A stretch of DNA of 50,307 bases, taken from Pleurocapsales cyanobacterium LEGE 10410 (lineage in GTDB: Bacteria; Cyanobacteriota; Cyanobacteriia; Cyanobacteriales; Xenococcaceae). The position numbers were made by a program, and so were the translations under genes. The stretch is taken from the NCBI GenBank assembly GCA_015207195.1, contig JADEXJ010000030.1, positions 1 through 50,307 on the forward strand, given 5' to 3'. Shown one piece after another: positions 3,227 through 48,882 of the stretch (position 1 is the stretch's first letter; the number at the start of each line of letters is the position of its first letter). The notes under the pieces are model-generated. The model worked only from the letters and a program-made list of their open reading frames with translations. It searched no databases and was not told the DNA's origin.

Positions 3227-3260
3227 AGTTTTTCAAGACATTCAATCTTTTACCAGTGAA
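3227..3260 (-). promoter_or_regulatory. TTCACTGG bipartite motif, copy A (EthD gene)
   Basis: On the minus strand the site reads TTCACTGG, a 17-base spacer, then TGAAAAACT. It shares the first half and spacing with the copies at 25739 and 40870, and points toward the EthD gene start at 3048. The second half is the more diverged part here. The 77 bp on the gene-proximal side also contain a near-direct repeat (TTTTGGGGAATTTG and TTTTGGGAATTTG at about 3151-3185). Function is inferred only from recurrence and orientation. Confidence 0.55.
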
Positions 3261-3337
3261 GATTAGGAATTTAGAAGAAAAATTAACCATAAATGGGGGA
3301 GAGCCAAGATACGGATACTGTTGGCGAAAGCAATCAA

Positions 3338-6300
3338 TTAGTAATTAAACACAATACAAAGAGAAGAAAATGTAGAAGATGATCCTTCCTCGCCCCATGA
3401 AATACATGGATCGAGCGGTAGATTTTGTCTTTTATTTGGAGAAGTTACTCCGTTTATTAATCCTTGAAATACCGACCATCCCCCATTTACTATCTGGGCT
3501 AATAGCTCGACGGTCGGTTGAAACTTGTCTAATATTCCTGGGGACTGAGTTGGAGCCATATTCACCCCCTGCTGTTTATTAGTAAAATTACTATTTTGGT
3601 CGGGGGTGGATATAGAATCTGGACTCAATCCGTATTGCGTTTCTATCATCACCTGATACAGTCGGTTCTCCTCTTGTCGCTGCCGTTGGCGCTCTTCTCG
3701 TTTGACTCTTTCCGCTTGCCGATATTCCAATACCTGTAGAGCAAAAGTAACCTCCTCGACAGCCAAACTGTAATACTTCACCTGTTGACCGCTAGAACCT
3801 TTTTTCCGAGAAGCAGTCTTTAAACCCAGCTTACCCAGCAACATCCCCAGTAGCCAAGTAGGACTACAATTATCGGGAATCCAAAAACCGAGAATCGTTT
3901 TAATATTGTCTCGATAGCTTTTCGCTGTCTCAGCCAGCTTTATTAATTCGGGGTCACTAGCCGAATACTCCTCACCCGCCAACAAACGCTCTAAAATCTT
4001 CGGTAGTCCTAAAGTCTGCCACATCATCCACTGAGTACAATGATGCTGTCTATCGGGTAAGAAGGGTAAATTATCCAACTCCCATCGATCTCGCTCTTGT
4101 ACTATCTGTGGTGGAACGGGACGTTTGCTACCAGTGTTCGAGTCGATTACTTCACCCTGGGGGGGAGACAAAACCGCTTCGAGATTAATTAACTGACCTA
4201 AATAAGCTCCTCCTTTGTCCTTTTTAACTAGTTCTTCCGTAACTTCTTGCCCATAACCAGATTCAATTCTAAACCGCTCTAATTGATACTGCTCCGATGG
4301 AGCCAGATTAGCCTTGTTCTTCAACTGCAAATATTGCTGGCGATCGATCTTTTCGGCGGTAGTTACCTGTTTTATATGATGCTCGTCAATCTGTTTTTTC
4401 GCTTCAATTAAATCCGATTTAGCACCATCATCACCTTGAGTTTCGACGAGAATTACCTTGTAGCCCATCCTCGCCAACAGCCGATGCAGATGATCTCTTA
4501 AATTATTCAGGGAACGATTATGTTTGGCTTTGACCTGACAGAAAGCATCGAAAGCCCAACCATTAACGGGAGTTTTCTCCCCAGTTTCCATGTCAATGCC
4601 CATCAAAAAGCCATTAAACTCGTCAAGGGTTAACATCTCCTGCTTAATTACATTGGGGTTAGTGTTCTGGTAGCCAAAGCTAGGACGGGGAGCTACCCAG
4701 ATATGTAGGGGTACAGATTGGCGGTAGCGGTGTAACGCCTGAAGACAATCCGTAGCCGATAGCGAAACCGCGTTAAATACGCCATAAACCTCATCAAAGC
4801 GCTCGCCCTGGATATCTACACCAGTACAGAGGCTTGGGGAGGCTAACAGGATATCTACATCTTCTACAGCGGTCGATATATTGTTGATGAAGTGCTGGTT
4901 TTCTGGGCTGCCACTATTCTCGGCATGAATCGTCCAGATTATCTTGTTTGACGAACGAGAGTGCTTAGAATTAAATCCACCTTTAATGCCCAGCTTCTTC
5001 ATTAAAACCGCTTCTAACTTCAAAATAGTCTTCTTGGAGTCAGAAACCACCATTACTCTTTTACCCTGTTCGATAGCAGCAATGAGTTTGGCAACTATTG
5101 CACTGCTATCATTGCCCTGATAGTAATAAACATCACGAGGAGGACTTTTGTAGTCATTTTTAATAATCAAAGGAGTTTCTTCTTCAGGGCGCATCGCACG
5201 GAAGAAATCAATCGTATTATCATCTAAATGAGCATCGGCAATAATGACCCGTTTAGCACTTCTAATAAAATACATCAGACTCATCAAGATTTCTTGGCGA
5301 TGCTGTTTGCAGGTGTTAGCAGCTAAAGCATGGTTCATCACCTGACGGGCTTCATCGATAAAAATACACTCATACCGATTTCCTGCGGTTCTGAGCTTGT
5401 AGAGACTATCGATGGTAATAGATAGAGAATTAACTTTATCTAATTGTCCTTGAGGTAATTCTGAATATAGGTTGGTATTTAACTTCCCGATCTGGGAAAG
5501 TTCTCGAAGTAAGGAGATTCTGTGACCGATAACTAGAAATTTTTGGTGGGGATGATTTTGGCGGTAATTCTTAACCAGAGAAGTTTTTCCCGTCGCCATC
5601 TCTGATTTGATGCCTGTAAGTCCTCGGGCATCTAGGACGATCTCTGTTGTATCTGGCAGGTAGGGAACGCAGATAGCGGTGTCGGGAGCGTATTTAATTA
5701 GTTCATCGTCATCAGGATTGCCAATCCATCGATATTCTTCAATTGTATGGGCATTGTTAATGATTCTACTTAAATGTCCTGATGCCGAGTCTCCTCGTGA
5801 GGTGATGAAGTCATCGACTCCTTTTTCGGGTCCTGGTAGTAGAGCGACTTTACAGTTAACACCAGCAGCTTCGATGGCTTCTCCTGTTGCTAGAGTCGCC
5901 TTGTAAACCGCCTCGCGGGTGGACTGCTTTTGGTCGTAGTCAAAGAGAATGATGAAGGTACGTCCAGGCTGCGCCAGGGGTAGTAAATCGTGATGTAATT
6001 TTTGGTCTGGGTCTCGGTCTTTGGGTTGGCGACCGCCCCAGATACCAGGTAGGGAGATGGCAGCATAGCCCTGAGAAATTAGTGACCCTGCTTTTTTTTC
6101 TCCTTCAGCCAGGACAATGGGAATTTCAGGATGACTCTTGACCCACGACCAGAAGTTAACGGGTTGTTTCCTAGCACTCAAACGTAGGGCTAAAGGAGAA
6201 TGATAAAGTTTGATGCCGTAACGGGCTGCCACCTGACTCCAGAGGGGAAGGGGAACGCGGAAATAGGTAACTCGGTTGGGGGTCTTGGGTGGAGATTCGT

Positions 6301-6670
6301 ATTTGACTAGCTTGCCATTATTTCCTGTGCGGGGAGAATCTGGCTTGAAGCGACCCCACGCCATGACATCGATCCAGTTATTGTCGGGGTCGAGTCCTGC
6401 GATATACCAGCCCCCATGTTCGAGGTGCCGATAGCGTTTGAGTATCTTATCGCGGAGTCTGCCATCGTTACGACGGTCTTTATCGGGGAGGGAGTAGAGG
6501 AGGTAGTCGTGGGTGGTCAGTCCCGATAGGGAGGTTAGGTTAAGTTCTGTTAATTTATCGTCAACTGAGCTTTGGTTCCATTCAGCTTGGTGATGGTCGT
6601 CAACTCGCTCAAATGTATGACTGATTGAATTTTGAAAGCTGTTCGAGGTCGCTGTATGGTCTGTATCCAT
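3338..6670 (-). CDS. Plasmid replication protein, CyRepA1-like (Toprim-like plus helicase)
   Basis: The 1110-residue protein joins an N-terminal Toprim-like DUF3854 domain to a superfamily helicase/ATPase domain. The Toprim-like part has IVLAEGEKKAGSL near residue 187 and the acidic strand IILFDYDQ near 243. The ATPase part has Walker A GIKSEMATGKTSLVK near 353 and Walker B IFIDEARQ near 438, followed by helicase-like strands such as RVMVVSDSKKT and DILLASPSLCTGVDIQG. This layout matches the CyRepA1 family that replicates cyanobacterial plasmids. A long coiled, charged region with RVKREERQRQRQEE lies near the C-terminus. The gene faces away from the mob operon. An origin is most likely in the upstream region 6671-7026 or inside the gene. 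Confidence 0.82.
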   Translation of the reverse strand: MDTDHTATSNSFQNSISHTFERVDDHHQAEWNQSSVDDKLTELNLTSLSGLTTHDYLLYSLPDKDRRNDGRLRDKILKRYRHLEHGGWYIAGLDPDNNWIDVMAWGRFKPDSPRTGNNGKLVKYESPPKTPNRVTYFRVPLPLWSQVAARYGIKLYHSPLALRLSARKQPVNFWSWVKSHPEIPIVLAEGEKKAGSLISQGYAAISLPGIWGGRQPKDRDPDQKLHHDLLPLAQPGRTFIILFDYDQKQSTREAVYKATLATGEAIEAAGVNCKVALLPGPEKGVDDFITSRGDSASGHLSRIINNAHTIEEYRWIGNPDDDELIKYAPDTAICVPYLPDTTEIVLDARGLTGIKSEMATGKTSLVKNYRQNHPHQKFLVIGHRISLLRELSQIGKLNTNLYSELPQGQLDKVNSLSITIDSLYKLRTAGNRYECIFIDEARQVMNHALAANTCKQHRQEILMSLMYFIRSAKRVIIADAHLDDNTIDFFRAMRPEEETPLIIKNDYKSPPRDVYYYQGNDSSAIVAKLIAAIEQGKRVMVVSDSKKTILKLEAVLMKKLGIKGGFNSKHSRSSNKIIWTIHAENSGSPENQHFINNISTAVEDVDILLASPSLCTGVDIQGERFDEVYGVFNAVSLSATDCLQALHRYRQSVPLHIWVAPRPSFGYQNTNPNVIKQEMLTLDEFNGFLMGIDMETGEKTPVNGWAFDAFCQVKAKHNRSLNNLRDHLHRLLARMGYKVILVETQGDDGAKSDLIEAKKQIDEHHIKQVTTAEKIDRQQYLQLKNKANLAPSEQYQLERFRIESGYGQEVTEELVKKDKGGAYLGQLINLEAVLSPPQGEVIDSNTGSKRPVPPQIVQERDRWELDNLPFLPDRQHHCTQWMMWQTLGLPKILERLLAGEEYSASDPELIKLAETAKSYRDNIKTILGFWIPDNCSPTWLLGMLLGKLGLKTASRKKGSSGQQVKYYSLAVEEVTFALQVLEYRQAERVKREERQRQRQEENRLYQVMIETQYGLSPDSISTPDQNSNFTNKQQGVNMAPTQSPGILDKFQPTVELLAQIVNGGWSVFQGLINGVTSPNKRQNLPLDPCISWGEEGSSSTFSSLCIVFNY

Positions 6671-25487: not shown

Positions 25488-25507
25488 TTTTATGAAGTTA
25501 AGAAATA

Positions 25508-25700: not shown

Positions 25701-25738
25701 AGCTTATAACAGCTAAAGTTATCTCTAACTTCCTTTTT

Positions 25739-29577: not shown

Positions 29578-29886
29578 ATGTCAAAAAATTTCTTGAAATC
29601 AAACAAAATCGAGAACAATGAGCCTCAAAAAATGGGTTGGTGGATAGAAATTCGTACTGCTAATCCTTCATGCACATATTACTTTGGAGACTTTTACAGT
29701 TTTACAGCAGCAGCTTTAGCACAATATGGCTATATTCAAGACCTCAGCGAGGAAAGGGCCGAACTAGTTGCTGTTGAAATTAAGCAGTGTCAACCCAAGC
29801 AATTGACTATCTACGAAAATGAATCGAAACATTTTTTAGACGACCGTATTTATACAACACCAGATCCCCGCGCTCTTTTCCTTTAA
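29578..29886 (+). CDS. DUF1816 domain protein
   Basis: The 102-residue protein has a core starting MGWWIEIRTANPSCTYYFGD and continuing FYSFTAAALAQYGYIQDL and AELVAVEIKQCQPKQLT, the layout of the cyanobacterial DUF1816 family. The function of the family is not known; members are small and often stress-linked. It lies 70 bp after the AGE gene and 57 bp before a STAS gene, inside the icfG-type cluster, so is probably co-regulated. A palindrome AAGCGTGTACGCTT sits in the gap before it (about 29520). Confidence 0.8.
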   Translation: MSKNFLKSNKIENNEPQKMGWWIEIRTANPSCTYYFGDFYSFTAAALAQYGYIQDLSEERAELVAVEIKQCQPKQLTIYENESKHFLDDRIYTTPDPRALFL

Positions 29887-29943: not shown

Positions 29944-30279
29944 ATGATAGAACTCAAGATCGAGACAGTCGAAGTAGCGACAGTAGTTGAGCTTACAGGT
30001 GATGTAGATGCTAGTACCGCATCAGAAGTAAAAGATAAAATTTTGCCCCTCTTTGAAGCAGAAAGCAAGATGCTCTTGGATATGACTAACGTACCTTATA
30101 TGTCCAGTGCAGGATTGCGAATGCTGCTAATGCTATATCGGCAAGCATCGATTCAGCAGGTCAAGCTGGTGCTAGTAGGACTTTCCGAAGAAATTGCTGA
30201 CATTATGGAGGTAACTGGATTCCTCAATCTTTTTACTACCAGCGCAACCATCGAAACTGGACTAACGGCACTATATTAG
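29944..30279 (+). CDS. STAS anti-sigma factor antagonist (1)
   Basis: The 111-residue protein is a single STAS domain: VVELTGDVDASTASEVKDKI, then LLDMTNVPYMSSAGLRMLLM with the serine that is the phosphorylation switch, and VLVGLSEEIADIMEVTGF. In partner switching the unphosphorylated form binds the anti-sigma kinase and frees its target. It would be the substrate of the PP2C phosphatase at 25956 and of the HATPase protein at 33215. Confidence 0.92.
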   Translation: MIELKIETVEVATVVELTGDVDASTASEVKDKILPLFEAESKMLLDMTNVPYMSSAGLRMLLMLYRQASIQQVKLVLVGLSEEIADIMEVTGFLNLFTTSATIETGLTALY

Positions 30280-30621
30280 GATTAGAGAACTCGCTTTGAT
30301 GAGGCAAAATTATCGAAGTAGATCCAGGAAGCAATAAAGCTCGAAACGCTTATCCTGTAATGCTTTTTTATTTCTTTTGGCACTTGTGCTGTGGTATTGA
30401 CTTTTGCAGACTTTGGATGTTCCTGAGAAGTTAGATGTTTCTACTAGATTACGAAAAAGACTAAAAACAATACGAGACCAAACTTATGCCGCTCGTCAGT
30501 TAATAGTAATCTAGAGCGTTTCAACCACTAAAAGCTACAAATTTTTCGCTTGTTGCCCTTACTGTTACTCTCGCCCTTATTCGACCCTATTTATCCACCA
30601 AAAGAAAATAACAAAGTAAAA
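30280..30621. other. Intergenic region with a gene fragment
   Basis: This 342-bp gap before glgX contains a short plus-strand coding-like frame at 30401-30514 (LDVPEKLDVSTRLRKRLK, then RDQTYAARQLIVI and stop) without an ATG, probably the C-terminal relic of an unrecognised gene. The stretch at 30520-30570 (TCAACCACTAAAAGCTAC) resembles 49077-49096, so both may derive from one lost element. No promoter motif is evident. Confidence 0.4.
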
Positions 30622-32781: not shown

Positions 32782-33102
32782 ATGAGCTTGAACACAACTC
32801 TAGAAACCACTAACGACACGGCAAAAATCTTTCTATCAGGAGAACTTGATGGAAGTACCGCTAATTCCTTTCAAGAAAAAATTGAAGAGGTAACTAATTT
32901 GGCTCTAAATCGTCTCGTATTGATAATGGAAGACTTGGAATATATGGCGAGTGCGGGGTTGCGAGTTCTGATCTTCGCCAAACAAAAGATGGGTCCTAAT
33001 GTAGATATATATATTGTTGGGGCGCAAGAGATGGTACTAGACACCATTGAGAAAACTGGCTTTCATCATAGCGTCATTTTACTCGATGAATACAACCCAT
33101 AA
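32782..33102 (+). CDS. STAS anti-sigma factor antagonist (2)
   Basis: The 106-residue STAS protein contains KIFLSGELDGSTANSFQEKI and MEDLEYMASAGLRVLIFAKQ with the switch serine. It is diverged from the STAS protein at 29944, so the two probably respond to different partners or bind the same kinase with different strength. It follows glgX by 33 bp and precedes the HATPase gene. Confidence 0.92.
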   Translation: MSLNTTLETTNDTAKIFLSGELDGSTANSFQEKIEEVTNLALNRLVLIMEDLEYMASAGLRVLIFAKQKMGPNVDIYIVGAQEMVLDTIEKTGFHHSVILLDEYNP

Positions 33103-33121
33103 TAATAGACTTATGCACGAA

Positions 33122-33178
33122 AGTCGCGACGAGAGAGAGAGCCCAATTGCAAAGCAATCGCTCTTTGAGTCGCGAGCT
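33122..33178. repeat. Palindromic repeat between STAS and HATPase genes
   Basis: The block has GTCGCGACGAGAGAGAGAGC, a core ATTGCAAAGCAAT, and CTCTTTGAGTCGCGAGC, giving nested complementary arms (CGCGACxxGAG with CTCxxxGTCGCG-like pairs). It resembles the small dispersed palindromes of cyanobacterial genomes. It separates the HATPase start from the STAS stop. Confidence 0.5.
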
Positions 33179-33214
33179 GAAATAACGCCATTTTTGAGAC
33201 CACATACATTATCA

Positions 33215-33670
33215 ATGAAGCCTCTAATTGTCGCTGGTGAGCTAGAGTCGTTGACAGAAATCGCTCAGTTTGTGATTAAAGCAACGCAAAAAGCTAGCTT
33301 AGATAAAAAAGCCGCTTATCTGTTGCGTTTAGCGGTGGATGAAATTGCTACTAATATAATTACTCACGGTTATAAACAAGCAGGATTGGCAGGGAAAATA
33401 TATTGTCAGGCAAAAATCAATGAAAATGCTTTGATTATAATTCTTGAAGATACAGGAGTAATCTATAATCCTCTGCAACAAGAAAAACCCAATAGTTTAC
33501 ACAAGCCATTGGAACAAAGAGTTGTTGGTGGGTTAGGTGTTTATTTAGCAATTCAGAGTGTTGATAAGTTTAGATACGAACGACTAGGCGAACGCAATCG
33601 TAATATCTTTATTGTTTACAGCCAAGCATCGCAGAAAAGTCTCTTCTACGACCAAAACTCTAGGGCTTGA
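33215..33670 (+). CDS. HATPase anti-sigma factor / STAS kinase (RsbW-like)
   Basis: From the ATG at 33215 (MKPLIVAGELESL) the protein has 151 residues with the GHKL kinase motifs: N-box LRLAVDEIATNIITHGY, G1 IILEDTGVIYNP and G2 VVGGLGVYLAI. In partner switching it phosphorylates STAS proteins and binds a sigma factor or other target. The frame is open upstream to 33047, but that part overlaps the previous gene and a palindromic repeat, so I chose the family-like start. It closes the icfG-type cluster. Its target is not visible in the window. Confidence 0.88.
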   Translation: MKPLIVAGELESLTEIAQFVIKATQKASLDKKAAYLLRLAVDEIATNIITHGYKQAGLAGKIYCQAKINENALIIILEDTGVIYNPLQQEKPNSLHKPLEQRVVGGLGVYLAIQSVDKFRYERLGERNRNIFIVYSQASQKSLFYDQNSRA

Positions 33671-34340: not shown

Positions 34341-37300
34341 ATGAGTAAGCTAAGCCAAAAAAGGAAACGCGGGATTGTTCTTACCTCCGAAGGACTAGAA
34401 AAACTTAAAAAAGCCAGATTTGAATCTGAATACCAAGAAAATTTTGGCGAAAGGTACACTTACGAAAAAATAAGCGAGCTTACTAATTTAGATCTAAACA
34501 CGATTAAGAGAGTACTGGCTTGCAAAGAAGGGGTTGATAAGCGTACACTTGAGCGTTTTTTCATTGCTTTTAATTTAGAACTAACCACTAGTTGCTACAT
34601 AAAACCAAATCCCAATAAGCGTCAAGATTGGGGAGAAGCAATGTGCGTCTCAAATTTTTACGGACGCACTTTTGAACTTACAAGGTTAGAACAGTGGCTC
34701 TTAAGAGATCGCTGTCGATTAATTACACTACTGGGAATGGGAGGGAACGGTAAAACTTGTCTGTCGGTTAAGTTGGCTCAACAGGTTCAAGATAAATTCG
34801 ATCTGATCGTCTGGCGATCGCTCCGAGATGCTCCCCCGCTAAAAAAGCTTCTGGCGAACATAATTCAATTTTTCTCCTCTGAAGCAGAAACCGAGGCTGA
34901 CTTACCAGAAAGCATAGGCGGAAGAATTTCGCGTTTAATTGAATATCTGCGCTCGGATCGCTGTCTTCTGGTGCTGGACAACTGGGAATCGGTGCTATCT
35001 ACTAATAATCGAGCTGGAGTTTGTCGGGAGCAATATGAAGGTTATGGCGAACTCCTCAGACGAGTAGGACAAACAGAGCATCAAAGCTGCTTGCTGCTGA
35101 CAACACGGGAAAAACCGAAACGAGTAGCAGCTTTAGAGGGAGAAACGCTTCCGGTTCGCACTTTCCGACTAAGTGGTCTTAAAAAGTCAGAAGGATGGGA
35201 AATTCTCAAAGAAAAGGGACTCGATGGCTCGGAATCAGAATTTAATGCGCTGGTCAAACACTACGGGGGTAATGCTCTAGCTTTAAAAATAGTAGCAACA
35301 ACAATTCGAGATTTGTTTGGGGGGAATGTAAAAGAATTTTTGCACTCAGAAACAGTGGTTTTTGGCGATATTCGCGACCTTTTAGACCAGCAGTTTAAGC
35401 GTTTGACATCTTTAGAAAAAGATATTATTTACTGGCTAGCGATTAATCGAGAACCGACTACCCTGTCTGAGTTGAGAAACGATTTGGTAGCGTCAGTTCC
35501 GCGAGCAAATTTGATGGAAGGGTTGGAGTCTTTGTCTCGGCGAGCATTGCTCGAACAGAATGCAAGCAGCTTTGTGCTTCAGTCGGTGGTTATGGAATAT
35601 ATTAACATTAGGTTAATTGAGCAAGTTTGTCAAGAGATCGAGACTCAAAAACTCAATTTTTTTAGCTGCTATGCCCTAATGAAAGCGACGGCAAAGGACT
35701 ATGTAAGGGAAAGGCAAATTCGTCTCATTCTCCAGCCTGTTGTAGACGGGTTGTTTAGTGTTTTTAAATGTAAACGAAGCATTGAAGAGCGGTTAACTAA
35801 AATTCTGGCGACGCAGCAAGAGACTTCGCCCAGAGAACGGGGGTATACGGCGGGAAATATTATCAATCTGTTTTGTCAGATGGAGACAGACTTAACTGGT
35901 TATGATTTCTCAAATTTGTGCGTATGGCAAGCAGATTTGCGGAATGCTACTTTGCATAATGTTAATTTTCAGAATGCGGATTTAGCTAAGTCAGTTTTTG
36001 TCGAAACCTTTGGTGGGGTTATGTCGGTAGTATTTAGCCCAGACGGAAAACTTTTGGCTGCGGGAGATACTAATGGTGAGATTCGCTTACGGCGGGTTGT
36101 AGATGGACAACAAATTTTTACCTTTGAGGGGCATACAAACTGGATTACATCGCTTGCCTTTAGCCCCGATAGTAGTATTCTTGCCAGCGGTAGTAGTGAC
36201 CATACGGTGAGGCTGTGGGATATTGAGACAGGTCAATGCTTTCACACCCTGCAAGAACATGATAATGAGGTTTGGTCAGTTGACTTTAGCCCTGATGGTA
36301 GTACTCTTGCTAGTGGCTGTGACGACCACAAGATAAGACTATGGAGTATTCGCACTGGTAAATGCCTCAAAATTTTTAATGGACATATAAATTGGGTACT
36401 GTCGGTAGCCTTTAGTCCCGATGGTAAAACTTTGGCTAGTGGCTGTGATGACAACACGATTAGGTTGTGGAACATCAGCACTAGTGAATGCCTCAAAATT
36501 TTTAATGGACATAGTGATGGTATAAGATCTATTACTATCAGACCAGATGGTCAAATGCTAGCGAGTGGCAGCGATGACAACACGATTAGGTTGTGGAATG
36601 TCAACACTGGTGAATGCCTCAAAACTTTTAATGGACACACCAACGAGGTATGGTCAGTTACCTTCAGACCAGATGGTCAAATGCTAGCGAGTGGCAGTAA
36701 TGACAACACGATTAGATTATGGGATGTCAGTACTGGTAAATGCCTCAAAATTTTTAATGGACATACTAATTTAGTCTTCTCAATCGCTTTCAGTCCACAA
36801 GGTAGTATCTTGGTTAGTGGCGGTCGCGACCAAACGGTAAGGTTATGGGATGTCAGTACTGGTCAATGCCTCAAAATTTTTAATGGATATACTAATCAGG
36901 TATTTTCAGTCTCCTTTAGTCCCGATGGTCAAACGTTGGCAAGTGGTGGTCGCGACCAAACGGTAAAGTTATGGAACGTCAGCACTAGTCAATGCCTCAA
37001 AACCTTTAATGAACATAATAGTGCTGTTAGATCGGTAGCCTTTAGTCCCGATGGTCAGACGTTGGCAAGTAGCAGCGATGATAAAACAGTAAGGTTGTGG
37101 GATCTCAGTACTGGTCAATGCCTCAAAACTTTTAATGGACATAACGCTCCAGTTTGGTCGGTAGCCTTTAGTCCAGATGGTCAGACGTTGGCAAGTAGCA
37201 GCGATGATAAAACAATAAGATTACGAAATATTTCTACCGCTCAGGCAAGAATTTGTAAGGGACATGAAGCCGCAATCTGGTCAGTAGCTTTTAGTCCTCA

Positions 37301-37865
37301 AGGAAAGATATTAGCTAGTGGCTCTTTAGATCAGAAAGTTAAGCTGTGGGATGTTGGCACTGGTGAATGTAAAAAATCGTTAGAGGGGCATACGAGTTGG
37401 ATTTACGCAGTAGCCTTCAGTCCAGATGGACAGATACTGGCGAGTACTAGCTCAGATCGAACATTGAGATTGTGGAGTGTTAGTACTGGTGAATGCCTCA
37501 GAATTATTAAAGAAGATACTATGATGTTACAGACAGTAAATTTTAGTTCGGACGGACAAACGCTGGCTGGCGGCTGTTGTCATAAACACACAGTTAAATT
37601 GTGGAATACAAATACTGGTGAATATAAAAATACTTTGCAAGGACATGAGGGTTGGCTTTGGTCAGTTGCCTTTAGTCCCGATGGTCGGACACTGGCAAGT
37701 AGTAGTGATGATGAGACAATTAGACTATGGAATGTAGCAACAGGTGAATGCCTCAAAATTATGAGAGCTAAAAGACCTTACGAGCACATGAATCTTACCG
37801 ATGTTACAGGGTCAACGAAGGCAACTATTGCTACGCTGAAAGTGCTGGGGGCTACTGATAGCTAA
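34341..37865 (+). CDS. STAND NTPase: HTH + NB-ARC + 14 WD40 repeats
   Basis: The 1174-residue protein has an N-terminal HTH-like domain (about 10-90: GIVLTSEGLEKLKKARF to KRTLERFFIAFNLEL), an NB-ARC ATPase (Walker A ITLLGMGGNGKTCLSV near 128-142; Walker B-like RCLLVLDNWESVL), a helical linker, a short pentapeptide-like stretch (about 520-552) and 14 WD40 repeats from about 557 to 1140, enough for two seven-blade propellers. Repeats 3-10 are very alike at DNA level (CTCAAAATTTTTAATGGACA recurs), so they expanded recently. STAND proteins act as ligand-triggered switches in signalling or phage defence. The start has GGAGG upstream. A second gene follows closely. Confidence 0.9.
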   Translation: MSKLSQKRKRGIVLTSEGLEKLKKARFESEYQENFGERYTYEKISELTNLDLNTIKRVLACKEGVDKRTLERFFIAFNLELTTSCYIKPNPNKRQDWGEAMCVSNFYGRTFELTRLEQWLLRDRCRLITLLGMGGNGKTCLSVKLAQQVQDKFDLIVWRSLRDAPPLKKLLANIIQFFSSEAETEADLPESIGGRISRLIEYLRSDRCLLVLDNWESVLSTNNRAGVCREQYEGYGELLRRVGQTEHQSCLLLTTREKPKRVAALEGETLPVRTFRLSGLKKSEGWEILKEKGLDGSESEFNALVKHYGGNALALKIVATTIRDLFGGNVKEFLHSETVVFGDIRDLLDQQFKRLTSLEKDIIYWLAINREPTTLSELRNDLVASVPRANLMEGLESLSRRALLEQNASSFVLQSVVMEYINIRLIEQVCQEIETQKLNFFSCYALMKATAKDYVRERQIRLILQPVVDGLFSVFKCKRSIEERLTKILATQQETSPRERGYTAGNIINLFCQMETDLTGYDFSNLCVWQADLRNATLHNVNFQNADLAKSVFVETFGGVMSVVFSPDGKLLAAGDTNGEIRLRRVVDGQQIFTFEGHTNWITSLAFSPDSSILASGSSDHTVRLWDIETGQCFHTLQEHDNEVWSVDFSPDGSTLASGCDDHKIRLWSIRTGKCLKIFNGHINWVLSVAFSPDGKTLASGCDDNTIRLWNISTSECLKIFNGHSDGIRSITIRPDGQMLASGSDDNTIRLWNVNTGECLKTFNGHTNEVWSVTFRPDGQMLASGSNDNTIRLWDVSTGKCLKIFNGHTNLVFSIAFSPQGSILVSGGRDQTVRLWDVSTGQCLKIFNGYTNQVFSVSFSPDGQTLASGGRDQTVKLWNVSTSQCLKTFNEHNSAVRSVAFSPDGQTLASSSDDKTVRLWDLSTGQCLKTFNGHNAPVWSVAFSPDGQTLASSSDDKTIRLRNISTAQARICKGHEAAIWSVAFSPQGKILASGSLDQKVKLWDVGTGECKKSLEGHTSWIYAVAFSPDGQILASTSSDRTLRLWSVSTGECLRIIKEDTMMLQTVNFSSDGQTLAGGCCHKHTVKLWNTNTGEYKNTLQGHEGWLWSVAFSPDGRTLASSSDDETIRLWNVATGECLKIMRAKRPYEHMNLTDVTGSTKATIATLKVLGATDS

Positions 37866-39085: not shown

Positions 39086-39979
39086 TCAGCTTTTCCCCGC
39101 AGACATATCGGTGATTTTGAGCGGTTCTAAAATCTGCTGAATTTCTTTATCTGATATATAGCCCTCGCTAGGTGGGCTAAAGCACATCAGTGCAGTTTCA
39201 TAACAGGCTCTCGCTATGCGGGTACGTTCTTTTGCAGTAAGCCCTGCTACCATTTCTACTGTCTCTTCTGTATGTTCTATGTCTGCACCTACGCTACTGT
39301 GTACGCGCAGGCAACGAGTGGCATTTATACCTGGTACTAGTAAATCCTCTACCTTCTGGATATACTTTTTATCAACACCCAAGGCTAAACGCTCCATCGT
39401 ATAGGAGTAGCCTACACAATCGATAGGATCTAAATCTTCTACGCTGCGGGTAAAGTAATCTATCAAGGCTACGGCGGCAGGGGGGATGAGTGCCTTTACT
39501 ACAGCTTCGGGATCGTATCCCATTGACTGAATATCGCGCAGAGCAAGTCGATCGTGACCCTGCTCTTCATTGGCTTTCTGTGCTGCCCACTCTGCCAAAC
39601 TCCAGCAACCAGTCATATAAAAACCTACGCTGGCTTCTTCCATCAGTTCTAGGGTTGGGTGACATAGATGGTAAGCACCAGCTAGTCGCCATATCCAGCG
39701 CGTGGAAGTCAACGCAGGCGGTCGGAAATTTGAATTTATAGTGTATTTGGCAGCAGCGATCGCACCGTCTAATAACTTGCGAGTGGTAGGGATACTACCT
39801 GCGCCTTTCATCGGTTTGGTAAAGCGATCGTCCGCAGAACGGGGTTGATACAACCAAGTACGGCTTTCAGTGGCTACTATTACTTTGTCTGGTGAAATCT
39901 GCGCCCATTCAGCATTAGTAAGATCGGCGAAGGAAATCTCGTGGACTTGTTTTTTTGTCACACCTATGTTATTATTCAT
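39086..39979 (-). CDS. HO-like (haem-oxygenase fold) protein, possible diiron oxidase
   Basis: The 297-residue protein is all-helical and contains EEQGHDRLALRDI (about 138-150) and GADIEHTEETVEMV (about 229-242), acidic/His motifs like those of the haem-oxygenase-like diiron oxidase (HDO) or PqqC/iron-containing redox families. Helices such as HLCHPTLELMEEASVGFYM supply further ligands. HDOs use a transient diiron site to oxidise amino acids or fatty acids. The substrate here is unknown. A small gene follows at 38991. GTGG...CCAC inverted sequence lies upstream (about 40008-40054). Confidence 0.75.
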   Translation of the reverse strand: MNNNIGVTKKQVHEISFADLTNAEWAQISPDKVIVATESRTWLYQPRSADDRFTKPMKGAGSIPTTRKLLDGAIAAAKYTINSNFRPPALTSTRWIWRLAGAYHLCHPTLELMEEASVGFYMTGCWSLAEWAAQKANEEQGHDRLALRDIQSMGYDPEAVVKALIPPAAVALIDYFTRSVEDLDPIDCVGYSYTMERLALGVDKKYIQKVEDLLVPGINATRCLRVHSSVGADIEHTEETVEMVAGLTAKERTRIARACYETALMCFSPPSEGYISDKEIQQILEPLKITDMSAGKS

Positions 39980-40194: not shown

Positions 40195-40400
40195 CTTATT
40201 AGTCAGCTTCTGCCTTTACCCATCAATTGATGAGGTTGTACAAAACAGAACACATCGTAACTCATGTCTGCGTACAGAAGACTTTGAACTTAGTGTAAAG
40301 AGAACTTGGCAAATTTGCCTCAACAAATACGGAGTTTTCGTATCCTTCATTTATTTAGGTACCTTGGTTACAAATTACAAACGTTACTAATTATCTTAAG
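40195..40400 (-). pseudogene. Degraded copy of the RHH gene
   Basis: The DNA from about 40195 to 40300 matches 25090-25195 closely (for example AAAACAGAACACATCGTAAC in both), and 40340-40440 matches the promoter side 25405-25510 (ACAAACGTTACTAATTATCT in both). Between them the middle of the gene is deleted and the frame has stops. It shows a duplication of the RHH gene together with its promoter motif. Confidence 0.75.
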
Positions 40401-40425
40401 TACCTAAAAAAACTTTTCCAGGGAT
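40392..40425 (-). promoter_or_regulatory. TTCACTGG bipartite motif, copy C (RHH relic)
   Basis: On the minus strand: ATCCCTGG, 17 bases, CTTAAGATA. It is the paralog of copy B with one change in the core (TCACTGG to TCCCTGG). As it stands before a dead gene, drift is expected, and this makes it a natural control for the other copies. Confidence 0.5.
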
Positions 40426-40869
40426 TTTTAAGAAGTTAAAAAAGAAACTAGGTCACATTATCAACTTTAAACCAAATGATAATAACAGCTAAATAGACTG
40501 GTAATATCATATAGCGTTTTATCAATAAAGCCAAACAACAGATCCAGCAAGATAAGTGAAACCTAAAAAAATGACTGTGGTTCGATCTTAACAGGTTGCA
40601 ATTGCCCGATTACTATAGTTTGGCGAAGAAACTTTTTCTGAAGCGACGCGCTTTGTAGAGATGTTTGTCTTAGTCTCGTTTTTTATTGATGACACGCCCT
40701 AATATATTAGACTTCTTGCATGAATCATGCGTTCGTCACACACAGAAGTGCATAACCAAACTTTTACCACTCACCTTTTCGTTTGTCCCACCTGCTGATT
40801 AGTCGTTAACCGAACAGTATTGGTTAGTGGATTATAAAAGATGACCTAATTTTTTTTAAATTCTCAATC
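40426..40869. other. Non-coding region with possible IS remnant
   Basis: I see no gene. At 40711-40735 the words AGACTTCTTGCATGAATC and GCATGA/TCATGC resemble terminal sequences of common cyanobacterial insertion sequences, but no second end or transposase is present. 40620-40690 has a short open frame without family likeness. Confidence 0.3.
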
Positions 40870-40903
40870 TTCACTGGCTAAAACTTAATTACTCTGGAAA
40901 GAT
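40870..40903 (+). promoter_or_regulatory. TTCACTGG bipartite motif, copy F (PfpI gene)
   Basis: TTCACTGG, 17 bases, TGGAAAGAT: both halves and the spacing are identical to copy E before the PP2C gene, and CTAAAACTTAA in the spacer resembles ATAAAACTCAA there. It points to the DJ-1/PfpI gene 114 bp downstream. Confidence 0.6.
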
Positions 40904-41016: not shown

Positions 41017-41646
41017 ATGACAAATATAAATTCCCAGACTAAAGGGAAAATTGGTGTACTTATTGAAGAGCATTTCGATGACACTGAGTTCCGAAGATTC
41101 AATGAGTTTTTTCCAGCGAATGGCTATGAAGTAGAGTACATATCTCATCTTTGGAATCAAGAAGAACTAACCTTCAAAGGAAACGAACTGACAGAAGAAG
41201 TTACGGTTAAAGTAGAAGTAAACGATGTTGACCCTACAGATTATCAAGGCATCATTTTAATCGGTGCCTATGCAACGGATCGCCTTCGGTATGAAGCGCA
41301 TCCTCAACTTGGTCAACCCAATCAAGCTCCTGCTATTAAGTTTCTCCGCAAGGCTGTCAAGGCTATGGATGCCAATCGTTTAAAGATTGGCACTATCTGC
41401 CATAGCCTTTGGTTGTTTTGTGCGGCACCAGAACTTCTTAAAAATCGCCAGGTTACCTGTGCTCATAATCTAATTTGCGATGTCCAAAATGCTGGAGGCA
41501 TCGTTATGTTTGATGGTAATGGAACCAAAACAATGTGTATCGATGGCGGCTTAATTACAGGCAAACATCCCGATTCAGTAGATGAATTTATGAACATATT
41601 TTTAGAGGAAATTCAAAAGCAAGAGAGGCAAACAGTTGGCGTATAG
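41017..41646 (+). CDS. DJ-1/PfpI family protein
   Basis: The 209-residue protein has the DJ-1 fold: GKIGVLIEEHFDDTEF with the acidic residue near the active site, GIILIGAYATDRL, the nucleophile elbow IGTICHSLWLFCAA with Cys at about 129, and CIDGGLITGKHPDSVDEF. Members are stress-linked glyoxalases, proteases or chaperones. A strong ribosome binding site (AGGAGG) precedes the ATG. The TTCACTGG motif upstream links it to the PP2C switch cluster; I recall PfpI- and CMD-like neighbours in the Synechocystis icfG region, which should be verified. Confidence 0.9.
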   Translation: MTNINSQTKGKIGVLIEEHFDDTEFRRFNEFFPANGYEVEYISHLWNQEELTFKGNELTEEVTVKVEVNDVDPTDYQGIILIGAYATDRLRYEAHPQLGQPNQAPAIKFLRKAVKAMDANRLKIGTICHSLWLFCAAPELLKNRQVTCAHNLICDVQNAGGIVMFDGNGTKTMCIDGGLITGKHPDSVDEFMNIFLEEIQKQERQTVGV

Positions 41647-43182: not shown

Positions 43183-46100
43183 TTAACCGAAAGAGAAGGT
43201 AGCTGTAGCTAGTTCGTCTTGAGTAATTCCCAAGAACGTTGCAACTAATTGACCATCTAAAGTAAGGGTAGCGTTACTTTCATTATCTTCACCAAAGCTG
43301 AGGTTGGGCGAATTACCAAAATCTGCAATACCGATCGCATCAACATTGAGTTCAAAGTCAGCGATCGTGTTAGCAGAATCTGGTAACTCGGCATTAACAA
43401 CCCAGAATCGATCTGCACCTTCGCCACCAGTAAGGGTATTACCACCATTAGAACCGACGGAGAAAGTATCATTCCCCGCACCGCCAACCAGTCGCTCGCC
43501 TCGTCCGAGAAAAAATATATCATCTCCCTCATCGCCATAAATACGGTTGTTATCCTCACCCAGAGAAGCATCGAGTATGTCATTCCCCGCACCGCCAACC
43601 AAGCGATCGCTGTTTCCAGCTATCAACTCATCATTATCACCACCACCATAAATACGGTTTTGTCCGATAGAAGCACTAGTATCGACGAGATCGTTACCGC
43701 TACCAGCAAAGACAATATTGCCGCTGTCATTAAAGTCGTCCGTTAAAACGTTTGCATCTAAAACATCATTACCTGTAGTACCGAAAACCTCTTGAGATGA
43801 CTGAGTAGGAGAAGAAAGGCTAATAGATGTGGGGGCATTCTCTTCCTGAAGATGGATTAATTGAGACTCGCTGTTTTTGGTGCGACTAAACAGAACTGGT
43901 TCGCCCCGCGGTAAGTCTGGAATATCGGCAAAGGTTCCTGAAAACTCTTCAATTTCACTATCAGGAGTAAATTCTGTTTCTAGACGAATTTCAGAGGAGT
44001 GTTCGGAGCTTTCTTCATGAGACTCTCCTCCGTGAGGCTCTTCTCCATAAGACCCTTCTCCATGTCCATGATCTGCAAGATAAGTAGACACCTTGAGCTG
44101 CTCGTGACCGTCAGGTGCACCATCCACTGCCATTGTGGTTATGTTGGCATAATGGGTTTGAACGGGTCGATCATTTGGCTCATCCGGTCTCTGGAGTATG
44201 TGGCCAGATGTAACCTCAATTTCCCCTTGGTAAGAGTCGCCGTAGGGTTGAAAAGGCTCAGACAGCAATGCGGTTTGCCGTGCTGTTTCAGTGCCATCTA
44301 AAGTCCCTTGACCGTCAATTAAGATGCCGCTGTAAACTTCCACTAGTCCTTGTCCACCGCTGCCCTGACCTACGATGATATCGCCAAAGTTGTCTCCTGT
44401 CGCATCTCCTACCGCCAGGTTTATCTTGCCGTCAAACGCTTCTTCTGAGGTAAAAGGAGCAATACGACTGAGCAGCTCGGAATTTTTACCACTGTAAATC
44501 TCAATCAGTGGCGAAACTCCTCCGCCGATCCCCACTACTATGTCTGAGTGACCATCGCCGTTAATATCGCCTGCTGCTACTGAGGCGACTTGTTCTGGCG
44601 ATACATCGATCTCCTGAAAAGGAGCGAACTCTGTAATCAGTAGCTCTTCGTCCTGACCGTCAAATTCCTTGCGTTCTTTTTCCTGCTTGTCAATGAGTGT
44701 TTTGCCATCGAATACTTTAACGGAAAACTCATTCTGTGAGTTTTCCAAAGAAGTTTGCACCGTGACAACATCAGTGACGTTATCGGTTACGTTGTAATGA
44801 TCGAAGTCCCGCTTGTAATTGATATCTGCAATAGCGAGGTCTATTCCTCCAGTGAATTCTTCTCCATAGGGGGTTAGGCTAATGCGTTCTTGAAGCTGAT
44901 TAGCCCGATTTAATTCTACCTTTGTTCCATCAGGATCGCCTTCTTTATTTCCCACTCCTAACCAAGTATCTCTTGTATTCAGGATAACCTTGACGGGTGC
45001 CATCATCCCCGCATCTTCGTGGAACAGAATGTGGCAATGATTTACGTAAGTACCAGGAAAGTCCTTAAAGTTCATGGCGATTTTGACTTCCGAGGGAACG
45101 CCGTCCTGTTGTGGTGTACCATAAGGGTTTTCTGGCGTAGGCGTGCCAGGTTCGTGGGTTGGTGGTAATGCAATAGTATCCCCCAAGACCCCAGCTAAGT
45201 AAGTCTGAGCCATATCTTCAACTGGGATACCGTTGATTTCTGAAACAATAAATTCATTCTGGTGAATATGGAACGGATGAAATTCGACTAGAGGAAGATC
45301 TTGCGGTAAGCTGGGATCGCTCAGCCCAGATTCGTTGACAATCGTCCACATTTCTGTAGTGTCCAGCATCGGCATTGCTACTGGGGTCATGCTGCTACCG
45401 TCAGTAGAAAAATATTCTCCATTAATGCGGTAGGTTCCCTCGAACGATAATACTTCCGTATCGTCTGGAGCGTTACCTTCTGCAAGCGCGCCGCCGATGT
45501 TTGCCGACCAGATATATTTACGCTCTTTATCGACATCGCCGTTCTTTACTGCTTCGACAAGTTCGTCAGTTTCCTGGCTTTGTTCTTCTAAAGTTTCATA
45601 GGCTTCGGGCAACGGACCAGTCGCAACCTCATCGCCAGTCACTTCAATGGTTGACAAAACTTGAGGTCCCCAAGTAAAGCGACCATCGTCAAATCCCGCA
45701 TCTTCAGTTAACACTGGAGCATCATCGCCCAGAATCTCTTCTGTTCCATTGGAGAGAAGGTAATAGGTGCCTGGTTCTTCAAACCACTTTAAGATAGATT
45801 TCCTCCCCCCAGGATTGAGGATTGGAAACTCCGTTATCTGCTTGCTTTTATCTCCTGCTAAACCGCCGAAGGTATTTGCATCGATACCTACAAAAGAAAC
45901 TTCTTGGGGAATAAGTTTGTCACCCTCCTTTTTTACCAATTGCACGACATGATGGGCATTAATGTCCATATTAGCCAATGTGAACATATTCCATTCGCCC
46001 GTCTTGAGTTCGAGGGTGGGATTGTATTGACCATTGACAGTATGAATGGCATTTTCTACAGGTTCTGCTAAGACTCCTCCCCCATATTCAAAGAGAAATT

Positions 46101-47010
46101 GTTCTGGAACGCCTGTGGGATTTTCGGGGTCGTAGGACTCAGGGAGAGCGTTAAAACCGATCCCAACTGCATCCGACAGTTCGTAAACCTTCTCACCATT
46201 TTCAGTCTTGTCTAAAACTTCTAGCGGCGTACCGGCAGGAATTTCCAGATTGGGGTCTTGATTGAGGGGATCGTCTGGATTTCCCTTTCTATTGGTTTGC
46301 TGAATACCAAAGCTATTGATAGCCATGAAATGCATGGGCATTTCTTCCGGATTCCATTTGTCAAGATCTTGGAGATCGTGTTGGGGGTTAACCACTAACA
46401 GACCTGCTAATCCTGATGCTAATTGTTCGTTGGTTAGTCCGTGATAGTGGGGGTGATACCAGCTAGATCCTAGAGGCTGGTTATCTGGAATTTCAATATC
46501 TACATCCCAGGTTTTTCCCGACTCCAATCCAAAAAGAACATTGTCTCCATGACCTAGAGGTGATACGTGTCCTCCGTGAAAGTGAAAGTTAGAGTTCTGC
46601 GCTGGATTCGTTGAGTTATTTTCGAGTTCTATGTTTAACGTATCTCCTGGCTCTGCAATCAGCAGTGGTCCGGGTACTGTGCCGTTATATCCCCTGAGAA
46701 ATTCAAAGGGAGTTTGGTGACCGAGCCAGGGTATTTCGCCATCTCCTGCTTTTAAAATTCCAAAACCATCAATCTCGATTTGTTCGAGATCTTCTATTGC
46801 CAGAGATATATCGAGTTCTTTGTCTGGTCCCCAACTTGAGAAGTAATTACCCGGACGACCTTCTTGCCAATCCTTAAAAGGATCTTTAAAGGGGATCTTC
46901 TCCTCTGGATGAGGTAAGACCTTTAAATAGCCTTCTTTATCAAACCCTTGACTCCATTCGTTGAAGTTATCTTGCCCAATAATATATGCATTCTCCAGTT
47001 GTGAAGCCAT
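43183..47010 (-). CDS. Multicopper oxidase fused to FG-GAP and RTX repeats
   Basis: The 1275-residue protein starts with cupredoxin domains. Copper motifs are NFHFHGGHVSP (about 140), WYHPHYHGLT (about 185), HPFHIHQNEF (about 573) and HCHILFHEDAGMM (about 657), the full type 1/2/3 set. Next come FG-GAP-like repeats (GDINGDGHSDIVVGIGGG; GDATGDNFGDIIVGQGSG, about 790-920), a His-rich acidic stretch, and RTX calcium-binding nonapeptides (GGAGNDILDAS, GDEGDDIFFLG; about 1080-1200). No N-terminal signal is present, and RTX proteins leave by type I secretion through a C-terminal signal. It is likely a secreted oxidase of phenols or metals. GGAGAAG precedes the ATG. Confidence 0.92.
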   Translation of the reverse strand: MASQLENAYIIGQDNFNEWSQGFDKEGYLKVLPHPEEKIPFKDPFKDWQEGRPGNYFSSWGPDKELDISLAIEDLEQIEIDGFGILKAGDGEIPWLGHQTPFEFLRGYNGTVPGPLLIAEPGDTLNIELENNSTNPAQNSNFHFHGGHVSPLGHGDNVLFGLESGKTWDVDIEIPDNQPLGSSWYHPHYHGLTNEQLASGLAGLLVVNPQHDLQDLDKWNPEEMPMHFMAINSFGIQQTNRKGNPDDPLNQDPNLEIPAGTPLEVLDKTENGEKVYELSDAVGIGFNALPESYDPENPTGVPEQFLFEYGGGVLAEPVENAIHTVNGQYNPTLELKTGEWNMFTLANMDINAHHVVQLVKKEGDKLIPQEVSFVGIDANTFGGLAGDKSKQITEFPILNPGGRKSILKWFEEPGTYYLLSNGTEEILGDDAPVLTEDAGFDDGRFTWGPQVLSTIEVTGDEVATGPLPEAYETLEEQSQETDELVEAVKNGDVDKERKYIWSANIGGALAEGNAPDDTEVLSFEGTYRINGEYFSTDGSSMTPVAMPMLDTTEMWTIVNESGLSDPSLPQDLPLVEFHPFHIHQNEFIVSEINGIPVEDMAQTYLAGVLGDTIALPPTHEPGTPTPENPYGTPQQDGVPSEVKIAMNFKDFPGTYVNHCHILFHEDAGMMAPVKVILNTRDTWLGVGNKEGDPDGTKVELNRANQLQERISLTPYGEEFTGGIDLAIADINYKRDFDHYNVTDNVTDVVTVQTSLENSQNEFSVKVFDGKTLIDKQEKERKEFDGQDEELLITEFAPFQEIDVSPEQVASVAAGDINGDGHSDIVVGIGGGVSPLIEIYSGKNSELLSRIAPFTSEEAFDGKINLAVGDATGDNFGDIIVGQGSGGQGLVEVYSGILIDGQGTLDGTETARQTALLSEPFQPYGDSYQGEIEVTSGHILQRPDEPNDRPVQTHYANITTMAVDGAPDGHEQLKVSTYLADHGHGEGSYGEEPHGGESHEESSEHSSEIRLETEFTPDSEIEEFSGTFADIPDLPRGEPVLFSRTKNSESQLIHLQEENAPTSISLSSPTQSSQEVFGTTGNDVLDANVLTDDFNDSGNIVFAGSGNDLVDTSASIGQNRIYGGGDNDELIAGNSDRLVGGAGNDILDASLGEDNNRIYGDEGDDIFFLGRGERLVGGAGNDTFSVGSNGGNTLTGGEGADRFWVVNAELPDSANTIADFELNVDAIGIADFGNSPNLSFGEDNESNATLTLDGQLVATFLGITQDELATATFSFG

Positions 47011-47483: not shown

Positions 47484-48125
47484 TCAAACTGTGGTCATCA
47501 ATCTCAGTAACTCGCCAGGAGCAAAAACATCGCGATAGAAAGTCAGTTGCTCGGTTTTAAGATAGCAGGCTCCTCGGTGGCCGCGTCGAACCCAGGTTAC
47601 ATTTCCTTTAGCAATTGTTTCATTAGTCTCGTCGTCTACACACTTCCATTCAAAGTAAGTAAATTCTCCATGGAACATAACAATAGGCCAACACATAGTG
47701 ACTCCAGGTTGTGCAATTAATGCCCACCAATGCTTCTCACGCTCTTTTTGTTGTTCTAAGCCTTGATACGGACCGTCCTGACATAAATAGACCAGATCGT
47801 CGCGATATTCGCCCGTTAAAATATCGCCTCTTCCCTGTCTTAAGGCTTCGCAATGAGTTGGCCACCATTCTCGATTTTCTTGTTCGATTTGTTTGAGCGT
47901 ATAATCAGGACTTATTTGTGGCAAAGTTTCTTCTTTCATTGCCACAATTTCTTCTGCTTTCTTGATAAGTTTTTTCGCTAGCTCGTTTCCAACAAGTCCA
48001 GATCGAGAATAATCTGCTACTAAATCTTTATAATAATTAATTCGCGGCGTGAGCAAGCTTTGGGATCTTTGGCCTTCTTGAGAGGAACCATTCGATTGGG
48101 ATAAAATTAGTTTTTGTTCCAGCAT
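47484..48125 (-). CDS. NTF2/SnoaL-like protein
   Basis: The 213-residue protein has a helical N-terminal part (INYYKDLVADYSRSGLVGNE to LAKKLIKKAEEIVAM) and a C-terminal NTF2-like cone (CEALRQGRGDILTGEYRDDL, then QKEREKHWWALIAQPGVTMC, MFHGEFTYFEWKCVDDET and IAKGNVTWVRRG). SnoaL-like folds bind and convert small hydrophobic molecules such as polyketides. It belongs with the EthD, ABM and CMD genes by theme. The gene stands alone, 640 bp after (relative to its transcription) the CMD gene's start. The substrate is unknown. Confidence 0.82.
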   Translation of the reverse strand: MLEQKLILSQSNGSSQEGQRSQSLLTPRINYYKDLVADYSRSGLVGNELAKKLIKKAEEIVAMKEETLPQISPDYTLKQIEQENREWWPTHCEALRQGRGDILTGEYRDDLVYLCQDGPYQGLEQQKEREKHWWALIAQPGVTMCWPIVMFHGEFTYFEWKCVDDETNETIAKGNVTWVRRGHRGACYLKTEQLTFYRDVFAPGELLRLMTTV

Positions 48126-48425: not shown

Positions 48426-48773
48426 CTATAATGAGGAGTTGAACATTTCATTGAGTGTGCCAAAGCAACCGACAGCTTTGTTAAATCCCCCGTAAACGCA
48501 CATAAACAAAAGTAACTCCTCGATTTCCTCCAGCGTGGCTCCCTGCTTGAGAGCCATGTGTACGTGTGCGGCAAAAGGACTCCCGGGCCCTGTTTGATCC
48601 TGATTGACAACATCAACGGCGATCGTGATTAAAGCTTTCGTCTTTTGGTCAATTAACGGCAGACTCCAAACTTCACCTGCTACGCGGGTACAAAGATCGC
48701 CAAACTTGGGATTGATACTTTTTAAATTTTTTTGAAGTTCTTTGTCATCTAAAACTGCATTTTGGTACTCCAT
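48426..48773 (-). CDS. Carboxymuconolactone decarboxylase (CMD/AhpD-like) protein
   Basis: From the ATG at 48773, which has GGAGAG four bases before it (the ATG at 48785 does not), the protein has about 115 residues with the CMD core: LCTRVAGEVWSLPLIDQKTK, ALITIAVDVVNQ, then PFAAHVHMALKQGATLEEIE and LLLFMCVYGGFNKAVGCF. The helix pair normally carries CxxC or His/Glu; here the His pair is kept and CxxC absent, as in gamma-CMD rather than AhpD. A CMD gene also belongs, as I recall, to the Synechocystis icfG neighbourhood. A TTCACTGG motif lies about 80 bp upstream. Confidence 0.88.
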   Translation of the reverse strand: MEYQNAVLDDKELQKNLKSINPKFGDLCTRVAGEVWSLPLIDQKTKALITIAVDVVNQDQTGPGSPFAAHVHMALKQGATLEEIEELLLFMCVYGGFNKAVGCFGTLNEMFNSSL

Positions 48774-48848
48774 TTTACTCTCCATTCAGAAATTAATGAA
48801 TAATCGATAAAGATTTTGCAAAGTATAGGCTTGAGGAGTTCATCATTT

Positions 48849-48882
48849 AGTTTCCAGTGTGGGTTAGATTTTTACCAGTGAA
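48849..48882 (-). promoter_or_regulatory. TTCACTGG bipartite motif, copy D (CMD gene)
   Basis: On the minus strand: TTCACTGG, 18 bases, TGGAAACT. It points to the CMD gene about 75 bp downstream. Upstream, TTAATTTCTCAAAT resembles TTAACTTCATAAAA at copy B, so the conserved block reaches about 15 bases further upstream. Confidence 0.58.

Follow-up and report, generated by a model that had tools for sequence, protein, structure and literature searches.

Comparison with Described Systems

The icfG operon of Synechocystis (slr1852-1862) contains, according to the available parts of the reports on it (PMC8670252, PMC12329169), genes for a PP2C phosphatase, two STAS proteins, a HATPase kinase, an isoamylase, and an epimerase. 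The same genes are found on a contig of 50,307 nucleotides from Pleurocapsales cyanobacterium LEGE 10410 (JADEXJ010000030.1, positions 1 to 50,307; hereafter the window). Compact icfG relatives also carry genes for a carboxymuconolactone decarboxylase-like protein (CMD), an EthD-type protein, and a PfpI protein, as does the window. Unlike in the compact icfG operons analyzed, the window genes for CMD, EthD, and PfpI are dispersed on what is likely a plasmid, and each is preceded by an upstream element of about 60 bases. This element is conserved and is associated with a recurring set of genes in other genomes of the order. In the reading we consider probable, it would serve as common promoter to a regulon conserved among cyanobacteria, with a tandem ribbon-helix-helix (RHH) protein as the most specific candidate activator and the icfG-type block as a recruited member.

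Part of the element recalls the SigJ J-Box of Nostoc punctiforme, given in the accessible text of PMC6495340 as GGGaAtacT with the GGG and the A/T nearly invariant; the promoters carrying it are described there as having no clear -35 and only weak AT-rich conservation upstream. The element shares with these promoters the absence of a clear -35 and a -10-like box in which G, A, A, and T are conserved. It differs in its long conserved upstream part, in a box that starts with T where the J-Box has G, and in its gene set. When 29 non-redundant element sites were scored against the J-Box as a possible identity, the A was present in 25/29 and the T in 21/29, as against 2/29, 14/29, and 11/29 for the first, second, and third G. 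In place of weak AT-rich conservation, the 40 upstream columns of these sites hold 38.8 bits, which is an upper figure, since likeness in most of these columns was the basis on which the sites had been selected.

Two RHH systems are also relevant. TrcR of Anabaena, in the portion of the report available (PMC10272220), is an autoregulated RHH repressor whose 8-bp consensus sites overlap or lie near the -10. The window RHH protein is likewise a cyanobacterial RHH protein with a site before its own gene; unlike TrcR, it has two RHH units, and its element extends over about 40 bp upstream. The F-plasmid protein TraY is described, in the part of PMC12117103 at hand, as an RHH dimer fold in one polypeptide that acts in the relaxosome; it shares with the window protein the two units per chain, DNA binding by the latter being predicted. 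The element is not named in the literature on icfG, slr1852/slr1853/slr1860, or RHH proteins, as judged mostly from bibliographic entries. Titles and abstract openings contained nothing related on its core motif, TTCACTGG, together with cyanobacterial promoters, and no literature was found joining any three of CMD, EthD, cyanobacteria, and multicopper oxidase.

Sites and Architecture of the Element

The window corresponds to the complete contig C199 of a 392-contig, 6.64-Mb draft (G000). The nearest version of its module is carried by the Xenococcaceae metagenome-assembled genome MO_167.B27 (G015), of the same family and another genus. The original prediction described a bipartite motif, TTCACTGG followed after 17 (once 18) bases by TGGAAAGAT or a variant, at six intergenic places in sense orientation to the next gene. 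All six places are present, and their number exceeds chance. Each is intergenic and has the same orientation as the gene or gene remnant that follows it. The bipartite pattern with up to three mismatches gave three matches in the window versus 0.23 expected, and TTCACTGG occurred six times versus 1.23 expected (both from dinucleotide shuffles), one of the six being coding, at 44849. As had been claimed, TTCACTGG-N17-TGGAAAGAT is exact at 25739 (before the PP2C gene) and 40870 (before the PfpI gene), whereas the CMD site reads TTCACTGG-N18-TGGAAA, the EthD site has three mismatches to the bipartite pattern, the RHH site at 25454 keeps the first half only, and at 40392 the first half carries two mismatches. 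The last of these belongs to a second copy of the RHH block (85% identity over 115 bp) and therefore does not count as an independent site. It lies within the remnant of a second RHH block (40100-40520), in which a promoter with about 85% likeness to its intact counterpart over 115 bp stands before a degenerate tandem RHH gene with two stops (40202..40348, minus strand; 70% identity).

Alignment with the orthologous regions of G015 revealed a conserved AAnTTC six bases 5' of TTCACTGG and an AAAA after it, and the similarity between window and G015 starts abruptly 14 to about 35 bp 5' of TTCACTGG. The full consensus is TTAAnTT...CTTAAnTTCYYAATYTTCACTGGnnAAAA, then an extended -10-like TGnnAnAnT at a near-fixed distance. 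The upstream part, about 40 bp long, consists in order of TTAAnTT, five bases, CTTAAnTTC, YYAATY, TTCACTGG, two bases, and AAAA. The pattern AAnTTC-N6-TTCACTGG-N2-AAAA with at most one mismatch occurred five times in the whole genome, all in the window, versus 0 for the reversed pattern. At up to three mismatches there were 63 whole-genome matches versus 30 in the control, so weak matches to this pattern are uninformative. In the same 6.64 Mb, TTCACTGG-N15-20-TGGAAA was matched four times, three of these inside the window.

The second half, TGGAAAGAT, corresponds to the -10-like box and is general only as TGnnAnAnT. Its columns lay outside the patterns and matrix used for finding sites, and across the 29 sites, which include a few without an adjoining module gene (G001_b, G353_x, G271_STAS, and G260_TPP), they show G in 14/29, A in 25/29, A in 22/29, and T in 21/29 (uncorrected p for each between 6e-5 and 1e-7; 232 tests). 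These four downstream columns fit an extended -10, which agrees with part of the -35/-10 likeness proposed originally; the upstream part, at about 40 bp, is far more than a -35. The exceptional 18-base spacing at the CMD site vanishes once the A, A, and T are aligned in register.

With a matrix built from 27 sites of genomes other than G000 and G015 (the external matrix), the window returned only these six sites (3272-, 48894-, 25499-, 40858+, 25727+, and 40437-; 27.6 to 43.7 bits) at 8 bits or more, while 40 shuffles gave a mean of 0.15 matches and never exceeded 20.0 bits. The external sites had been chosen by likeness to those of the window and G015. Before the PP2C gene, the upstream part occupies 25713..25752 (plus strand; TTCACTGG at 25739; 29.1 bits) and the box TGGAAAGAT 25764..25772 (plus), with columns 38/41/43/45 conserved; the site is conserved in G015, and L025 and L032 agree in the bases around it. 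The PfpI site (40844..40883, plus; 35.5 bits) is likewise conserved in G015 and has TGGAAAGAT at 40895..40903 (plus) in the register of the -10-like columns. The site before the tandem RHH gene (25474..25513, minus; 38.0 bits) has an orthologous site in G015. By column alignment, the CMD site (48869..48908, minus; 41.5 bits) has its -10-like CTGGAAACT in register at 48849..48857 (minus), and the EthD site (3247..3286, minus; 43.7 bits) has TGAAAAACT at 3227..3235 (minus). The relic copy occupies 40412..40451 (minus) and scored 27.6 bits.

The RHH block is duplicated within the window and the EthD and CMD leaders are alike, as would be expected if the similarity were merely that of duplicated or mobile DNA in front of genes. 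We regard this explanation as very improbable: likeness among the five non-relic window sites is highest in the element itself (14-18 of 20 in the core bin), the -10-like columns are in register at most sites, and in other families of the order, too, genes of these kinds are preceded by the element. A mobile-repeat origin was set aside on the first of these grounds. In a separate observation, the EthD leader (3048-3272) aligns with the G015 CMD-operon leader down to the region of the CMD start, which suggests that CMD and the gene at 47484 may have been lost between promoter and EthD in the window.

A Recurring Gene Set in Other Genomes

Domain scans identified the genes following the window sites as encoding an EthD-domain protein (2122..3048, minus), a DJ-1/PfpI protein (41017..41646, plus), and CMD (48426..48785, minus). 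The protein encoded at 47484..48125 (minus) has no Pfam match and has relatives at 76-81% in motif-linked CMD operons. Our comparison pool held 388 genomes of the order, from which element-bearing stretches of about 4-40 kb each were analyzed. In 13 other genomes, the element stands before or near genes for CMD/EthD, PfpI, multicopper oxidase, WD40, haem-oxygenase-like, or tandem RHH proteins. It precedes CMD operons in G327, G139 (with one small gene between), G260, and Gloeothece verrucosa PCC 7822 (G312; plasmid Cy782201, NC_014533), PfpI genes in these same four genomes, and multicopper oxidase genes in G327 and Gloeothece. Plasmid Cy782201 has five sites in a 13-kb stretch, at its PfpI, WD40, RHH, multicopper oxidase, and CMD genes, two of the five being weak. 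The window genes for a multicopper oxidase (43183..47010, minus), a WD40 protein (34341..37865, plus), and a haem-oxygenase-like protein (39086..39979, minus) have such relatives. The WD40 relatives have the element about 360-390 bases upstream in G139 and G260, and weakly in Gloeothece, and the haem-oxygenase-like relatives follow the element and a regulator gene, which is an AraC gene in G041 and an RHH gene in G003 and G001. Elsewhere, the element precedes a cytochrome b561 gene, a SnoaL-type operon, and, 577 bases away, a DUF1816 gene in G019, and in G023 WD40 and haem-oxygenase-like genes lie between two sites, one facing a 78-residue frame and the other running off the contig. NRPS-like genes (AMP-binding, carrier, thioesterase) lie under the element in G015 and G291 (L080:2283-6218, L195:5446-9354), hinting at a natural-product branch of the regulon.

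Because patterns or a matrix built on window and G015 sites had served to locate the 27 external sites, the result of the external matrix in the window indicates consistency, not independence. A cleaner test is provided by a matrix from the five window sites alone, applied to nine stretches of seven genomes that had been retrieved by the RHH protein and not by the motif. It gave 23 matches of at least 10 bits versus a shuffle mean of 1.75 (20 shuffles, largest 5), including sites before PfpI (39.3 bits), CMD (33.5), and RHH genes (38.8, 38.2, 26.4, and 19.9) and an NRPS-like gene (26.4), with weaker scores before WD40 (16.6) and multicopper oxidase genes (14.1). A strong match in G271 precedes a STAS/glycosyltransferase row, and eight further weak matches in G341 (L200) and G001 (L202) have no evident module gene. 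Matches to the pattern across the order (129/388 genomes) were not used as evidence, many being recurrent coding sequences; of 20 places taken by eye among the matches listed, mostly for right-looking six free bases, seven lie before module genes, one runs off its contig end (L160, G353), and 12 have no module gene. The 81 "background" loci (297 kb) proved a poor control, having originally been fetched for pattern matches. The window-only matrix matched them 39 times at 10 bits or more; L137, L143, and L144 among them belong to the module, and L100/L108 adjoin WD40 and haem-oxygenase-like genes. A matrix of all sites gave seven matches there at 15 bits or more, two of which (L147 and L171, both coding) look like chance.

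The motif-linked PfpI proteins form one clade (97/97 support). The CMD tree is not clean, with two element-free CMDs (G015 C222 and G023 C250) placed among the motif-linked ones. Given the recurrence in 13 genomes, the co-regulated set of redox genes put forward originally is probable, and the scattered genes look like one jointly switched set. If so, the element gives this little-studied set of cyanobacterial genes a specific promoter signature that can be tested, and would tie redox enzymes and glycogen-debranching genes to one switch.

The icfG-Type Partner-Switch Block

The window has the complete PP2C/STAS/HATPase switch that had been reported, with adjoining isoamylase and epimerase genes as is typical of the icfG type. 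The block comprises a SpoIIE-type PP2C phosphatase (25956..27560; PF07228), a GlcNAc 2-epimerase-like protein (27672..29507), a DUF1816 protein (29578..29886), a STAS protein (29944..30279), an isoamylase (30550..32748), a second STAS protein (32782..33102), and an RsbW-like HATPase_c_2 kinase (33047..33670 from its first possible start, overlapping the STAS frame), all on the plus strand and the five between phosphatase and kinase recognized by domain scan. Relatives of CMD, EthD, PfpI, and PP2C form one compact icfG-type cluster in G000 C251, G014 C81, and G016 C29, with partial compact versions in G010, G015 C222, G019, and G023. In the window, and partly in G015, these genes are not contiguous, and the element precedes the dispersed pieces in both.

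The original prediction made this switch the regulon's own regulator; in the form considered here, an alternative sigma factor, freed by the PP2C/STAS/HATPase proteins, reads both halves of the motif directly as -35 and -10. The presence of a complete switch whose PP2C gene carries the element favors such a model, as do the G, A, A, and T positions that the -10-like box has in common with the SigJ J-Box and, in the part of PMC12329169 available, the reported control of SigC by Slr1861, the icfG-operon kinase of Synechocystis. We nevertheless consider it unlikely. Trees place the isoamylase and epimerase of window and G015 with those of compact icfG-type operons (100/100 support), while motif-linked isoamylases and epimerases fall on the other side of the tree, with those of G041 and G016 C12 (no site was seen before the latter two). 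The G015 block carries the element. Five compact icfG-type regions that include partner-switch genes (L079, the second copy in the same genome on C251, and L083, L084, L085, and L087) had no match of at least 10 bits to the window-only matrix, which gave one weak match each in L088, L089, and L091. Outside G015, the element-bearing stretches analyzed, of about 4-40 kb each, showed no relative of the window's PP2C or HATPase; STAS domains occurred there in G271 and fused to epimerases. The most conserved part of the element spans about 40 bp upstream, far more than a -35, and for SigC-dependent promoters the study of Nostoc punctiforme (PMC6495340) found no consensus that could be compared. As a regulator of the regulon, the switch is thus not supported as proposed.

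Because the block belongs to the icfG lineage and the compact relatives named above are free of the element, it seems to have come under the element in the line that the window and G015 represent, and it looks like a recruited client, which may in turn feed back on the regulon. With an icfG-type carbon-signalling block under a different promoter, the rewiring of a regulon would be visible here on what is likely a plasmid. A second conserved block before the PP2C gene (25844-25878), consisting of AAACAACCGTTTGTTT then TATAAT and nearly identical in G015, resembles a proximal promoter in its own right, with an operator that is palindromic.

The Tandem RHH Protein as Candidate Regulator

The protein encoded at 25089..25415 (minus) contains two RHH units (56B_RHH, two stretches, confirmed by alignment), its profile matching 2kel in the first unit and 1p94 (ParG) in the second. 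One cysteine per unit is invariant in 12 sequences. Searches of whole genomes found a tandem RHH protein in 11/388 genomes (E<=1e-12), and in eight of the 11 the element lies in sense before its gene (G000, G001, G003, G015, G139, G260, G312, and G329), a count that refers to element presence only and includes two genomes from the training set of the matrix used. The first A of AAnTTC is 76-128 bases from the start of the protein match in seven of these genomes and 259 in G329; no site precedes the second RHH copy of G001. In the original prediction the RHH gene was simply one of the clients; its placement makes it a better candidate for the regulator than the partner switch.

The mechanism we infer would begin with a DNA-binding activator on the asymmetric upstream part of about 40 bp, instead of a -35; with the -10-like box at its normal position, this part would extend from about -66 to -27. 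The activator would bring RNA polymerase to the extended -10-like TGnnAnAnT, as at class II activated promoters, a comparison in keeping with the box and spacing conserved across the aligned sites. The repeated TTAAnTT and TTC units would be expected for an oligomer or a single-chain double RHH protein. The tandem RHH protein is the most specific candidate for this activator, the element at its own gene being expected to provide feedback, and the icfG-type block would have been recruited under the same promoter on this plasmid. A more elaborate version, which we offer as speculation and think improbable, is a redox-responsive single-chain double RHH activator with an invariant Cys per half and an operator of about 40 bp, governing a mobile quinone-/aromatics-type redox regulon with the icfG system as client.

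Several observations weigh against this reading. Most RHH proteins act as repressors, and several RHH promoters have the -10-like box out of register. G019, G023, G041, and G327 have the element and no RHH protein at E<=1e-12, and G271, G291, and G341 have the RHH protein without a clear site before it (in G341 only 16 bits, 444 bases away). In the window, the WD40, haem-oxygenase-like, and multicopper oxidase genes have no clear site of their own, and no site was found in the G016 stretch L090, which carries WD40, haem-oxygenase-like, multicopper oxidase-like, and PfpI genes and had no match of at least 10 bits to the window-only matrix. Among the six genomes reached without use of the RHH protein (G019, G023, G041, G139, G260, and G327; G000 and G015 excluded), only G139 and G260 have it, which makes a host-encoded activator at least as likely. 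We accordingly give another host factor close to an even chance of being the regulator and hold the RHH protein, as activator or repressor, to be a reasonable possibility somewhat short of that; a sigma factor controlled by the partner switch is doubtful.

The RHH protein might instead be an autorepressor whose operator recurs before the regulon, the genes being turned on upon its release. TrcR is a cyanobacterial precedent for autorepression in the accessible part of its report (PMC10272220), and the element before the RHH gene in 8/11 genomes would suit it. The conserved part, however, lies upstream of the -10-like box, whereas the TrcR sites described there overlap or lie near the -10, and the RHH protein is missing from four element-bearing genomes at the threshold above; we consider autorepression unlikely.

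Additional Features of the Window and Related Loci

A very weak candidate element (7.6 bits) was observed at 33858, 483 bases before the WD40 gene. Downstream of the PfpI/epimerase operons in motif-linked clusters lie genes for a receiver-pyridine-nucleotide-reductase fusion and for a cNMP-binding histidine kinase (L208:8210-11305 and L205:7394-10472). The two might form a pair that senses redox state; neither was found among the window proteins scanned.

The window encodes MobC, a ParA-like protein, and a DUF3854 protein, and has a relaxase-like match slightly below the Pfam cut-off, from which the plasmid location assumed originally is likely. No plasmid record had a single match covering 80% of the window PP2C at E<=1e-40. 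No exact terminal overlap was found between the contig ends, leaving circularity unproven; an inverted 86-base stretch of 87% identity (57-141 and about 50111-50195) joins the two ends.

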